NCBI GenBank assembly: GCA_009379915.1
Contig: WHSV01000031.1
Coordinates: 1-34,502 of the forward strand
Direction of reading: 5' to 3'
Source: Actinomycetota bacterium
GTDB taxonomy: Bacteria > Actinomycetota > CADDZG01 > WHSQ01
Length of the DNA: 34,502 nt
Shown here: positions 25,629-31,472 of the stretch, one piece after another
How the letters are laid out: each line of letters begins with the position of its first letter
How positions within the stretch are numbered: position 1 is the first letter of the stretch
Notes under the pieces: generated by a model
Databases searched by the model: none
What the model saw: the letters and a program-made list of their open reading frames with translations, nothing else
Told to the model about the DNA's origin: nothing
Position numbers and translations under genes: made by a program

Positions 25629-26612
25629 TCATTCGACCTCTGCGGTCGCCCAGCGACCGGATTTGTCGAACGGACCCGTCAGCCCAAGCTCGAGCTGGCG
25701 GACCCTTGTCTCGATTGCGGCCAGAATCTGCTTCGCAACCCACTTGGGGCGATGGGTCACATCGTCCCATTCGAATCGGAGAACGAGCCAGCCCCGCGCG
25801 GCCAGCAAGTTCTGACGACGGTTGTCCCGATGGATGGCTCGCAGCCCCGAATGCCAGTGCACGCTGTCGATCTCGATCGCGATCCTGAGCTGCGGATAGG
25901 CGAAATCCACTCGGATGTCGGGCGAACCCGGAATCGCAACGACGTGCTGAACGACCGGCCGGGGAAGATCGAGGGAACGGATCACTCGGAAGACTCGCGT
26001 TTCAACGACGCTCTCGGGGGGTCGCTTAAGCGGTGCCCGTTCTTGGATGAGCGTTCTGAGCACGGCCGAACCTGGGGTTCCTCGGCCACCGGAAGCATCC
26101 AGCAGCGCAGCGACCCGATCGACGAGGGTCAGACCTTGACGCAGAGCGCTGTCCAGCGCGATCTCGAGAGACACCTCGTTGAGGGTTCCGGCGAGATCGA
26201 GGATCGTCTGCTCGATCGTCGTAGCCGGGAGAGGGCCGAAGTGCTTGCGGCGAAGGATCGCCACCTTGCGCTGGTGAACGGCGAGATCCTTCGACCGCAA
26301 CCGACGAGGGGTTGAAATCTCGATGCGGGAGCTGGGGATCCCGTCCAGTCCATGGAGCCGACCTGCGCTCCCGTGGCTCAACAGGGAGTCGGGGCCTGCG
26401 TAGAGGTGAGCCGCCATAGCCCGCCGCTCGAAGGTGTCGGGGTAACCGGCGATGCTAACGACACCCGGATGCATCCTCTGCCACCCACGCTTGAGTCTCC
26501 GACTGATGGCCCGCGCGTTCAATCCAAGCTCGGTCGCTTGCCGCACATGGACCACACCGAATTGCGATGACGCAAGATCGAGCGCGGCCAGCTCCGCATC
26601 GGAGGTGTTCAT
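25629..26612 (-). CDS. AbiEi-like winged-helix plus DUF559 nuclease-fold protein
   Basis: A 327-residue protein. The N-terminus (about 1-60, SSQFGVVHVRQATELGLNAR then AISRRLKRGWQRMHPGVVSI) resembles the winged-helix domain of AbiEi-type proteins. The C-terminal third (about 215-305) resembles DUF559, a Vsr-like PD-(D/E)xK fold: IRVDFAYPQLRIAIEIDSV with the acidic pair, then WHSGLRAIHRDNRRQN and GWLVLRFEWDDVTHRP. Such proteins are frequent and patchily distributed in actinobacteria; function is unproven, with nuclease or defence-related roles suggested by the fold. ATG 26612 was chosen at the point where similarity starts; no good Shine-Dalgarno sequence is seen. It lies antisense between wecA and the atp promoter, an insertion relative to the usual wecA-atpI junction. 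No toxin partner is adjacent. Confidence 0.8.
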   Translation of the reverse strand: MNTSDAELAALDLASSQFGVVHVRQATELGLNARAISRRLKRGWQRMHPGVVSIAGYPDTFERRAMAAHLYAGPDSLLSHGSAGRLHGLDGIPSSRIEISTPRRLRSKDLAVHQRKVAILRRKHFGPLPATTIEQTILDLAGTLNEVSLEIALDSALRQGLTLVDRVAALLDASGGRGTPGSAVLRTLIQERAPLKRPPESVVETRVFRVIRSLDLPRPVVQHVVAIPGSPDIRVDFAYPQLRIAIEIDSVHWHSGLRAIHRDNRRQNLLAARGWLVLRFEWDDVTHRPKWVAKQILAAIETRVRQLELGLTGPFDKSGRWATAEVE

Positions 26613-26716
26613 CTCGAGAGGGGAGCATGTCGGCGGAGGGTCCGCAGTGACGAGCGTCACACTATTCCCGGCCACCACGGGCATTTTTGGGGCGTCAAAT
26701 TATGGTTTTCGGACGG

Positions 26717-26745
26717 TTGAAGATATGGGTTGGATGGGCTACCTT
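26717..26745 (+). promoter_or_regulatory. Candidate promoter P1 of the atp operon
   Basis: TTGAAG (26717-26722) and TACCTT (26740-26745) are separated by 17 nt, in an unusually AT-rich stretch for this genome. The -10 hexamer overlaps the left arm of the CRP-type palindrome, so binding there would block this promoter. Confidence 0.38.
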
Positions 26746-26763
26746 GTGAAAAGATTCACAAGG
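26742..26763. promoter_or_regulatory. Perfect CRP/GlxR-type operator upstream of the atp operon
   Basis: CCTTGTGAA (26742-26750) and TTCACAAGG (26755-26763) form a perfect 9-bp inverted repeat around AAGA. Inside it is TGTGA-N6-TCACA (26745-26760), the exact consensus for CRP-family regulators, including mycobacterial CRP and corynebacterial GlxR. The centre is 26752.5. It overlaps one possible -10 and lies 33.5 nt before the first base of a second (TAGGAT 26786-26791). Confidence 0.62.
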
Positions 26764-26785
26764 AACGGCAAGGAGTCGAGAGGGT

Positions 26786-26791
26786 TAGGAT
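26786..26791 (+). promoter_or_regulatory. Candidate -10 element P2 of the atp operon
   Basis: TAGGAT, identical to the -10 in front of rpiB, would start transcription near 26798. That is 24 nt before the GTG at 26822. The CRP-type site would be centred at about -45.5, slightly further out than the usual class II position. Confidence 0.38.
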
Positions 26792-26821
26792 GCAGCGCTA
26801 TCCCAATCGAGAGAGTCTGCG

Positions 26822-27115
26822 GTGCGGCGCGCCCCCCTGTACGGAGCGCGCACCGCGGAAGGTGACGAGGAACTCAGGGGGATCGCCCTACAGGTGAGTG
26901 ACAATCGCGGCAGGGACATCATGAAGGCCGGCATGGCGAAGGGCATGTCGCTGGCCTTCGAGTTCGCAGGCGCGGTGTTCCTCTTCTGGTTCCTCGGACG
27001 ACTGGTTGACAACTGGCTCGGTATCGAACCATGGGGGCAAGTCGTGGGGGCCGTCGTGGGTTGGATAGGGGGCACGCTTCACGTGTTCTACGCAATGCAA
27101 AGGGGGACTAGCTGA
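26822..27115 (+). CDS. atpZ: AtpZ/AtpI-like small membrane protein
   Basis: A small two-helix protein of the AtpZ type encoded at the head of atp operons and thought to help ATP synthase assembly or ion supply. Helix 1 is LAFEFAGAVFLFWFLGRLVD, followed by the short loop NWLGIEPWG, then helix 2 VVGAVVGWIGGTLHVFYAM. Three starts are possible: GTG 26822 (purine-rich GAGAGAG upstream, 97 residues), GTG 26894 (AGGGGG 11 nt upstream) and ATG 26921 (AGGGA 4 nt upstream, 64 residues). The N-terminal residues before 26921 are polar and unconserved to my eye. The longest frame is reported, but the shorter ones are as likely. The stop is directly followed by the GTG of the next gene. Confidence 0.72.
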   Translation: MRRAPLYGARTAEGDEELRGIALQVSDNRGRDIMKAGMAKGMSLAFEFAGAVFLFWFLGRLVDNWLGIEPWGQVVGAVVGWIGGTLHVFYAMQRGTS

Positions 27116-27553
27116 GTGATCGAGCAACTCATGGTCAGGCGCATGGCCAAACGTGCGGTACTCGTGGGGCCCGTACTGGTTGGGCTCCTGTGGGTGCTGG
27201 GGAATCTCGACTACGCACTGTCGGGGGCCGTGGGAATCGCCATGACTCTGCTCAACCTCTGGATCGCGGCGCGTATCATCGGCACTGTGGCCGAACGCAG
27301 TCCGCACCTGCTGATGCCAACTGCACTGGCGACGTTCGCCCTCGGCCTCATACTGTTGACGGTCATCGCGTTTGCCCTGCAGTACTTTGATGCCATCGTC
27401 TTCCCCGTGACCGGTCTGGTCCTAATCGGGAGCCACCTCGGCCTCGTGCTATGGGAGGCTGCTGGGGCACATGCGACTCCGGGGTCACTCGGAGAGTCAA
27501 CCAAAGATGCAAACTCCCTGAGGTCAAAGGAGCCGAAGAATGCAGGACTTTGA
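27116..27553 (+). CDS. atpI: ATP synthase protein I-like membrane protein
   Basis: A 145-residue protein with about four hydrophobic helices (VLVGPVLVGLLWVLGNL; ALSGAVGIAMTLLNLWIAA; MPTALATFALGLILLTVIAF; AIVFPVTGLVLIGSHLGLVL) and a polar tail. This is the layout of AtpI/Rv1303-type proteins in front of atpB, implicated in c-ring assembly in some bacteria. GTG 27116 abuts the previous stop. The last 14 nt overlap atpB. Sequence conservation in this family is low, so the name rests on topology and position. Confidence 0.78.
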   Translation: MIEQLMVRRMAKRAVLVGPVLVGLLWVLGNLDYALSGAVGIAMTLLNLWIAARIIGTVAERSPHLLMPTALATFALGLILLTVIAFALQYFDAIVFPVTGLVLIGSHLGLVLWEAAGAHATPGSLGESTKDANSLRSKEPKNAGL

Positions 27554-28379
27554 TGTCAACCACCTGTTCTTCTGGGAACCCATCGTGTTCGGGGGGACGC
27601 CGTTCGCGATCAACCGCGTAGTCGTCTTGATGTGGATTGCCTCGATCCTGTGCATGGCTTTTCTCGTGGCTGGGGCCCGCCGTGGGAGTCTCGTCCCCAA
27701 ACGCGTGCAGTACATGGTGGAGACGGCCTATCTCTTTGTCCGCAACAACATCGCAATCGACGTGATCGGGCCCAAGGATGGCCCCAAGTACGCCCACTAT
27801 CTCGCGACTCTGTTCTTCTTCATCTTCTTTTCCAATCTGCTCGAGATCGTCCCCGGGATCAACTTCCCCGTGACCTCTCGGATGGCGATTCCCGCCGCTC
27901 TTGCGGTGCTCACCTGGATCGTTTTCAACGTCGTCGGCATCGTGAAACAAGGCCCCCTGAACTACGTCAAGGGAATCGCCTTCCCGCCGGGGGTGCCCAA
28001 GCCCATCTACGTCCTCTTAACGCCCATCGAGATTCTGTCCACGTTCATCGTGAGGCCTTTCACGCTCGCCATTCGACTCTTCGCCAACATGGTCGCGGGC
28101 CACACCCTGTTGGCCATCTTCTTTCTCTTCACCAACGACTTTCTAAGAGAGAACGTCTCGATCGCATCGCCGTTCGGCCTGGTCACCCTGTTGATCTCCT
28201 GCATCCTGATCGTCTTTGAGTTGCTGGTGATCAGCCTTCAGGCCTACATCTTCACCATGCTTACTGCGTCTTACATCGGCGAGGCGGTGCATGGTCACGG
28301 TGAGGAAGACGAAGAGGAATCCGAAGAAGTGTCCACCCGTCAGAGGACTCAGCACGAGACCGAGGGAATAGCCGCGTAG
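27540..28379 (+). CDS. atpB: ATP synthase F0 subunit a
   Basis: Membrane half-channel subunit for proton translocation. 279 residues. The essential arginine is R179 in RPFTLAIRLFANMVAGH; LATLFFFIFFSNLLEIVPG precedes it, and FELLVISLQAYIFTMLTASYIGEAVH forms the last helix. An acidic C-terminal tail (GEEDEEESEEVS) of about 35 residues is longer than in E. coli. ATG 27540 has AGGAG 7 nt upstream and overlaps atpI by 14 nt. Confidence 0.97.
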   Translation: MQDFDVNHLFFWEPIVFGGTPFAINRVVVLMWIASILCMAFLVAGARRGSLVPKRVQYMVETAYLFVRNNIAIDVIGPKDGPKYAHYLATLFFFIFFSNLLEIVPGINFPVTSRMAIPAALAVLTWIVFNVVGIVKQGPLNYVKGIAFPPGVPKPIYVLLTPIEILSTFIVRPFTLAIRLFANMVAGHTLLAIFFLFTNDFLRENVSIASPFGLVTLLISCILIVFELLVISLQAYIFTMLTASYIGEAVHGHGEEDEEESEEVSTRQRTQHETEGIAA

Positions 28380-28688
<309 letters not shown>

Positions 28689-28690
28689 CC

Positions 28691-29263
28691 ATGTCGGAAA
28701 CCGGGCTGTACGCGCTACTCATAGCTGCCGAGGAGGAGCGCAGCGGTATCGACCTCATCATTCCCGACCTCGCCGAGCTGATATGGGGCATCGTCTCCTT
28801 CGTGATCGTTTTTGCTGTACTGAACAAGTTCGCGTTGCCCCGAATCAAGGAGATGATCGACAAACGGTCCGATGTCATACAGGGCAACCTTCAGGACGCC
28901 GAAGCGTCCAAGACCGAGGCGCAGGGCATGCTTGACGAGTACAAGAAGCAAATGGCCGACGCACGCGCCGAGGCCAACCGCGTCATCGAGGAATCGCGGC
29001 AACAGGCGGAGCAGGTCCGTAAGGACATCATCGCCAGGTCAGAGAAAGACGCCGAGTCCATCGTGGCCCGCGCCCAGGAGCAGATCGAAGCCGAGCGGGC
29101 ACGCACCGTTTCCGAGCTCCAGGGCACCATCTCGACGATGTCGATTGAGCTAGCGGAGAAGGTCGTGGGACGCACCATCGATGCGGCTACGCAGAAGGAA
29201 CTCGTCGACGACTACATCCGTGACGTCACGACGATGAGCTCTAATGGAGGTCGAAGCAACTAA
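28691..29263 (+). CDS. atpF: ATP synthase F0 subunit b
   Basis: Peripheral stalk subunit. 190 residues: a short N-terminal segment, one membrane helix (LIWGIVSFVIVFAVLNKFAL) and a long charged helix (about residues 55-165) that dimerises and reaches F1. Unlike mycobacteria, which have an extra fused b-delta protein, b and delta are separate genes here and only one b gene is present. It starts 2 nt after atpE, and the TAA shares its last base with the atpH ATG. Confidence 0.95.
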   Translation: MSETGLYALLIAAEEERSGIDLIIPDLAELIWGIVSFVIVFAVLNKFALPRIKEMIDKRSDVIQGNLQDAEASKTEAQGMLDEYKKQMADARAEANRVIEESRQQAEQVRKDIIARSEKDAESIVARAQEQIEAERARTVSELQGTISTMSIELAEKVVGRTIDAATQKELVDDYIRDVTTMSSNGGRSN

Positions 29264-29799
29264 TGTCTTCCGACGAGCTCATCAGGGGTTACGCCGAAGC
29301 GCTTTTCACCGTCGTCAAGACCGAGGGCGACCTCGAGCGGGTCGAGGACGAGCTCTACCGGTTCGGCAAGCTGCTGCAGTCGAACAACGACCTCAAGCAG
29401 GCTCTGTCCGACTTGAGTGTCGACCTTTCGCAGCGCGTCAAGGTGCTCGAGGACATTCTCGCCAACAAGGTGTCGCCTCACACGCTCGGGTTGATCACGT
29501 TCGTCGTGGCGCAGGAGCGCGGGCGTCAGCTATCTCAGATCCTGGAGGAGCTCAGTGAGCTCGCGGCCGAGGCTCGCAAGTCGGTCGTGGCGGAGGTTCG
29601 CAGTGCCACGCCGCTGGACAACAGGCAGCGCAATGCCCTTGAAAAGGCCCTCGGCGAGGCAACGGGAAAAAAGGTCGAGGTCAAGGTACTCGTCGACCCG
29701 TCGATCATCGGCGGAGTCGTCGCAAAGATCGGAGACACCGTCATCGACGGCAGCGTGAAACGCCGTCTACAACAACTAAGGGAGCAGGTGAACGCGTAG
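29263..29799 (+). CDS. atpH: ATP synthase F1 subunit delta
   Basis: Connects the peripheral stalk to the alpha3beta3 head. 178 residues, normal for unfused delta. The N-terminal helical domain starts [15 protein letters not shown], and the C-terminal part contains [19 protein letters not shown] and [15 protein letters not shown], the family signature. ATG 29263 shares one base with the atpF stop, and its TAG shares G with the atpA GTG (TAGTG). Confidence 0.95.
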
Positions 29800-31472
29800 T
29801 GGCTGAACTCACTATCAGGCCGGAGGACATCTCCTCCGCACTGAGGCGCCACGTCGACGACTTCAGACCCACGCTCGAGCGCGAAGAGGTCGGCCGCGTG
29901 GACGAGGTCGGTGACGGAATCGCGCGCGTTACCGGGCTTCCCGGAGTCATGGCCAACGAGATGCTCGAGTTTCAAGGTGGCATCGTCGGGCTGGCGATGA
30001 ACCTCGAGGAACGAATGATCGGAGCGGTCATCCTCGGTGAGGCGAGCCACGTCGAAGAGGGCGGCGCGGTCAAGCAGACACACGAGATCCTCTCGGTCGG
30101 GGTCGGTGACGGGGTGCTCGGTCGCGTCGTGGACGGGCTTGGCACTCCGCTCGACGGGAAGGGCCCCATCAAGGCGGAGGCTCGCCGTCCGCTCGAGGTC
30201 CAGGCCCCCGGCGTGACCGCACGGCAACCCGTCAAGGAGCCGTTGCAGACCGGCATCAAGGCCATCGACGCGATGACGGCCATCGGCCGCGGTCAGCGTC
30301 AGCTCATCATCGGTGACCGGCAAACGGGCAAGACCGCGATCGCGATCGACGCGATCGTGAACCAGCGCGAGAACTGGGGCACGGACAACGCTGTCAAGTG
30401 CATCTACGTCGCCGTAGGCCAGAAGGCGTCGACCGTCGCCGAGGTCGTTGGCTCGCTCACCGAGCAGGGCGCGATGGAGTACACGACCATAGTCAACGCC
30501 GCGGCCTCCGACCCGGCCGCGTTCCAGTACCTCGCCCCCTACGCCGGCTGCGCCATGGGCCAGCACTGGATGGAGAAGGGCGAGCACGTCCTGATCATCT
30601 ACGACGACCTCAGCAAACAGGCCATCGCCTACCGGCAGTTATCGCTGCTGCTGCGTCGTCCCCCCGGCCGAGAGGCGTACCCGGGAGACGTGTTCTACCT
30701 GCACAGCCGTCTCCTCGAGCGTGCTGCCAAGCTGAGCGACGACAGAGGCGGCGGTTCCATGACCGCTCTGCCCATCATCGAGACCAAAGGTGGAGACGTG
30801 TCGGCGTACATCCCGACCAACGTCATCTCCATCACCGACGGCCAGATCTACCTCGAGTCGGACCTTTTCTTCTCCGGTGTGCGGCCGGCCATCAACGTCG
30901 GAATCTCGGTCTCACGAGTGGGTGGTAACGCACAGGTCAAGGCGATGAAGGCCGTCGCCGGCCGTCTGCGACTCGACCTCGCTCAGTACCGTGCTCTCGA
31001 GGCATTCGCCGAGTTCGGTTCCGAGCTCGACAAGGCCAGCCAGGCGCAGCTCGAGCGCGGTGCACGCGTTGTCGAGATCCTCAAGCAGAAGCAGTTCGCG
31101 CCGTATCCGGTGGAGGACCAGGTGCTGTCGATCTGGGCGGTTTCGAACGGCTACCTGGACGACCTTCCCGTCGAGCAGGTGCAGAACTTCGAGCGCAAGT
31201 TCCTCGACTTCATGCGCAGCCGCTACGCCCAGATCGGCGAGACGCTGCGCGACACCGGCGTGCTCGAGGACGACATAGTCGAGAAGCTGAGGTCCGCGGC
31301 CGATGAGTTCAAGCAGTCCTACCTCGACTCCGAGGATGTCGAGACCGTCGAGACCGTCGCCGCCGAAGAGGGCGTACCGGAGGCGAGCGCGAGTCCCGCC
31401 GCGGAGGGTGGCGAAGCCGGTCAACCCACGACCGAGCAGCCCGAGCCGACCAAAGAGGAGGCCAGCACCTAG
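29799..31472 (+). CDS. atpA: ATP synthase F1 subunit alpha
   Basis: Non-catalytic nucleotide-binding subunit of the F1 head. 557 residues. The P-loop is [10 protein letters not shown] (K178); [20 protein letters not shown] carries the regulatory arginine region, and [18 protein letters not shown] is the ATPase alpha/beta signature. Beyond the normal end at about residue 515 there is a disordered, Glu/Ala/Pro-rich tail of about 40 residues. Mycobacterial alpha also has a C-terminal extension, which suppresses ATP hydrolysis; whether this unrelated-looking tail does so is open. GTG start in a TAGTG overlap. Confidence 0.97.

Follow-up and report, generated by a model that had tools for sequence, protein, structure and literature searches.

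The inverted repeat located upstream of the ATP synthase operon is very likely a Rex operator, Rex being the repressor that senses the NADH/NAD+ balance. This assignment, made from sequence comparison, is based on the exact match of the site to the Rex operator, the intact Rex gene of the same genome, the conservation of the site in front of the atp genes and its absence where Rex is absent. By analogy with other members of the Rex family, binding, repression and relief by NADH would be expected at the atp site.

The palindrome and its genomic context

In the window, the whole stretch of 34,502 nucleotides that was analysed, the inverted repeat CCTTGTGAA-AAGA-TTCACAAGG spans positions 26742-26763, ahead of atpZ/I-B-E-F-H-A, and is formed by two perfect 9-bp arms (26742-26750 and 26755-26763) separated by a gap of 4 nt. 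The preliminary description had drawn attention to this repeat and to the TGTGA-N6-TCACA motif, and the coordinates of both were confirmed in the sequence; the motif (26745-26760) is the only match without mismatches in the window. The predicted Rex operator, to which no strand is assigned, is the 18-mer TTGTGAA-N4-TTCACAA at 26744-26761, with 0 mismatches to the Rex consensus. By itself, a perfect repeat with two 9-bp arms and a 4-nt gap is unremarkable, about 0.26 being expected in DNA of the size of the window, but the exact TTGTGAAN4TTCACAA is rare, being expected from base composition 1.2e-5 times per window and 1.2e-3 (about 0.001) times per genome. The genome of the window contains one exact copy and nine sites with at most two mismatches, against two for a reversed control pattern.

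The palindrome sits between a divergent gene with a DUF559/AbiEi domain and the atp genes, identified by Pfam as a PF09527 gene, ATP-synt_I and atpB, E, F, H and A. The divergent gene, on the minus strand, occupies 25629-26613 (its reading frame is open to 26684, an ATG at about 26613 being the likelier start). The atp operon opens with an AtpZ-like PF09527 gene (plus strand, 26894-27115), whose reading frame is open from 26822; the GTG at 26894 is the likely start of the gene based on the comparison with G012, in which the ATG of the atp leader gene is found 6 nt past a TAGGGT box (L143). Since this distance is so short, the atp mRNA of G012 may be leaderless. The remaining genes of the putatively controlled operon, atpI, atpB, atpE, atpF, atpH and atpA, extend over 27116-31472 of the plus strand, and the operon continues downstream. 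A hairpin considered in the leader (26816-26859) was discarded, as the leader folds no better than shuffled sequences (z = -0.27).

The genome encodes a single Rex (342 bits for NF003992, cut-off 226), which combines the winged-helix N-terminal domain PF06971 with the Rossmann NAD(H) domain PF02629. Both its recognition segment, VRKDLSYLGSYGTRGVGY, and its Rossmann glycines (GxGxxG) align with those of solved Rex proteins, and hemA directly follows rex.

Co-occurrence with Rex and the CRP-type core

The preliminary description had proposed looking for the palindrome in front of the atp genes of relatives, and there it is indeed present: an operator with 0-1 mismatches is located 682-929 bp 5' of atpB in all 13 testable genomes of the family, i.e. 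those with at least 900 bp readable before atpB. Outside the family, an operator with 0 mismatches occurs in one other genus of the class (G019). In an alignment of seven genera the operator is the sole conserved block of the region upstream of atp; the close relatives named in the alignment search are all unclassified Actinomycetota MAGs. More broadly, a site with at most two mismatches precedes atpB in 21 of 37 Rex-bearing genomes, the other 16 showing none at this threshold, and in 0 of 12 Rex-lacking genomes whose region before atpB could be read (Fisher p = 0.0004, related genomes being treated as independent). Outside the family the corresponding counts are 8/24 and 0/12 (p = 0.03, shared ancestry ignored). 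The sharpest comparison comes from one family of the class, in which Rex and a perfect site occur together in G019 and are both missing from G017, G018, G020, G022 and G023. G044, a positive control, carries TTGTGATACGGTTCACGA, letter-identical to the Rex-footprinted atpI operator of Streptomyces avermitilis.

The same site had been described as CRP/GlxR-type, and it does contain TGTGA-N6-TCACA, a perfect CRP-type core; in addition, a search for CRP-family regulators, proposed along with that description, returned three proteins above the Pfam cut-off in this genome. In order to avoid circularity, sites were also chosen by the bare CRP motif, which is silent on the four further positions of the Rex operator (0, 6, 11 and 17), and these positions were still T in 14/14, A in 14/14, T in 13/14 and A in 14/14 genomes, respectively. 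Conservation is thus not confined to the CRP core but takes in, with hardly an exception, the positions that set a Rex operator apart. Likewise, the distribution of the site does not follow that of CRP-family proteins: each of the 24 genomes examined has matches to the CRP-family HTH, whether it carries the site or not, and this holds for seven Rex-lacking genomes of the class, all of them siteless. The Rex reading therefore accounts for the distribution and the CRP reading does not. On the grounds of column conservation and genome distribution the CRP/GlxR identity was rejected, and it is highly improbable that a CRP-family protein responding to cAMP or to redox state reads the site. The preliminary description had also considered a redox-sensing member of the CRP family; the redox sensing is probably right, as a response to NADH/NAD+, the regulator being Rex instead of a CRP-family protein. 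Because the Rex operator holds the full CRP core, crosstalk at atp between Rex and a CRP-family protein sharing the site may be conceived. Both kinds of protein are encoded in the genome, the site at the rex promoter itself retains only the CRP core and the outer T/A, and one CRP-family protein is encoded about 3.5 kb away. The pattern of sites among relatives, however, requires no second protein and follows Rex alone, which makes such sharing improbable.

The genome-wide search for the palindrome that had been advised as a check on the CRP-type reading yielded 17 TGTGAN6TCACA sites, most of which are TGTGACGNNCGTCACA and many of which are found at AbiEi/DUF559 genes; consequently they lend no support to a CRP regulon, and this interpretation of the 17 sites was abandoned, seven of the nine AbiEi_4 genes having such a palindrome just upstream. 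These palindromes are placed about 60-110 bp 5' of the HTH codons in those seven genes, the one on contig C133 having a variant core, and are probably autoregulatory operators of AbiEi/DUF559 genes. With at most one mismatch, 15 are present in the genome of the window, against 0-3 per relative; besides the window, they are found on contigs C41, C57, C95, C105, C133 and C155 of the same genome (G000). The one in the window, AGTGACGAGCGTCACA at 26646-26661 (no strand assigned), which the preliminary description does not list, belongs to a different class of palindrome, outside the Rex system, and is probably the operator of the divergent DUF559/AbiEi gene.

Candidate promoters and predicted mode of regulation

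Two candidate promoters on the plus strand had been proposed around the operator, and their boxes are all present in the sequence: TTGAAG (26717-26722) followed after 17 nt by TACCTT (26740-26745), and TAGGAT (26786-26791). The upstream promoter (26717-26745), whose -10 overlaps the operator, is weak and not conserved as such, and -10 look-alikes 5' of the operator occur in 6 of 14 genomes, a count whose significance against chance was not assessed. TAGGAT is the candidate counterpart of the -10 of the downstream promoter conserved in relatives: in 10 of 14 genomes a TANNNT box, mostly TAGGAT or TACGAT, is located 13-16 bp 3' of the operator (shuffled sequences giving a mean of 0.3 and a maximum of 3/14). 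Since this box follows the operator at such a distance in most relatives, the right half of the operator, TTCACA, is likely to be the -35 hexamer. In the window, TAGGAT lies 24 bp past the operator, compared with about 13-17 bp in relatives, and the geometry of the promoter is therefore unlike theirs. A sigma-70 scan reported no promoter at the TTGAAG, TACCTT or TAGGAT boxes, and no -35-like hexamer is found in the window 16-18 bp 5' of TAGGAT. Given the 24-bp spacing, either the upstream TTGAAG-17-TACCTT or a downstream promoter poor in its -35 would be in use, and with either candidate Rex would sit on or adjoining the promoter.

Based on these positions and on the known behaviour of Rex, we hypothesize that, when NAD+ is dominant, a Rex dimer would occupy TTGTGAA-N4-TTCACAA and cover the atp promoter, so that RNA polymerase would be kept out and atp transcription low. 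As NADH rises, Rex would take up NADH and leave the operator, and the ATP synthase operon would be derepressed along with complex I (nuo) and rex-hemA. A switch between two promoters, in which Rex shuts the upstream one, with its -10 inside the operator, and TAGGAT stays active, or the reverse, appears unlikely. Candidate boxes do flank the operator on both sides in the window, in G011 and in G015 (TAGGAT on both sides), but the upstream ones are restricted to the six genomes mentioned above, the downstream -10 of most relatives is close enough to the operator to be blocked as well, and TAGGAT lacks a -35 partner here.

Other putative Rex targets and known Rex systems

Upstream of rex, an operator-like site, TTGTGATTGCACTCACAA, is found 14 bp from the gene with two mismatches, and in nearly all genomes of the family a site is located 14-22 bp 5' of rex and mismatched at one or both inner positions. 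These sites (L102-L115) retain the CRP core along with the outer T/A and deviate at the inner positions; the atp operators, by contrast, are perfect. In the account of Staphylococcus aureus Rex (PMC2883068), mismatches of this inner-position type accompany a lower affinity for Rex. By analogy, the inner mismatches upstream of rex would fit a weak autoregulation, and a hierarchy of affinities between the imperfect rex sites and the perfect atp operators is possible.

An operator also precedes a geranylgeranyl-reductase-like gene in 11 genomes, including G019; in the genome of the window, nuo genes (nuoB, C, D and L) come after this gene. In 10 genomes of the family (L202, L304 and L311 among the loci) an operator is located about 100-210 bp upstream of a YgjP-like metallopeptidase gene, with two mismatches in the genome of the window; this gene, absent from the passages on Rex targets in the literature consulted, is a possible Rex target. 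Further operators are found at sufD/EamA and gmd/rpf in several family genomes. Locus L027 (579-4745) encodes a B12-dependent ribonucleotide reductase with an intein-like insert.

TTGTGAAN4TTCACAA is given as the Rex operator of S. avermitilis, where Rex binds in front of and represses atpIBEFHAGDC, nuoA1-N1, cydA1B1CD and rex-hemAC1DB, with a footprint at atpI from -50 to -22 (PMC5355995). The system described here shares with it the type of 18-bp operator, atp as target operon, nuo and rex-hem as partner targets and, in most relatives, the probable location of the operator over the -35 region. It differs in that the atpI site of S. avermitilis, TTGTGATACGGTTCACGA, has two mismatches and the window site none, in the longer distance between operator and -10 in the window, and in that no cyd site is among the operators seen here (cyd itself was not a search target). 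The same source reports that in S. avermitilis oxygen limitation lowers atpI even in the absence of Rex, which is therefore not the sole input (PMC5355995). The S. aureus operator, TTGTGAAW4TTCACAA (PMC2883068), has identical arms and a preference for an A/T-rich spacer (AAGA in the window, 3/4 A/T). In contrast, Rex governs fermentation and nitrate respiration in S. aureus, and a text search of the paper found no mention of ATP synthase. With CRP/GlxR sites, TGTGA-N6-TCACA, the window site has a 16-bp core in common, but the outer T/A and inner A/T conserved in it are specific to Rex and its distribution does not track CRP proteins. With a perfect CRP core inside the Rex operator, the two are easily confused by motif readers, and a plausible misassignment, CRP, is here corrected to Rex.

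It is tempting, if rather speculative, to regard the Rex of this family as governing a compact and conserved energy regulon (atp, nuo and rex-hemA, joined in many genomes by suf/EamA, the YgjP-like metallopeptidase and gmd/rpf), the control of ATP synthase by Rex being common across the phylum and lost together with Rex, and the changed spacing in the window creating two promoters of which Rex would silence one start only. That operator and regulator are missing together in relatives lends independent support to a control of atp by Rex in this lineage. Since the wiring of Rex to atp is already known in Streptomyces, the present site is almost certainly, as far as comparative evidence goes, a well-supported ordinary case of it in a little-studied, uncultured lineage of Actinomycetota. 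The control of ATP synthase by the NADH/NAD+ balance found in Streptomyces would thereby extend to a lineage recorded only in metagenomes.
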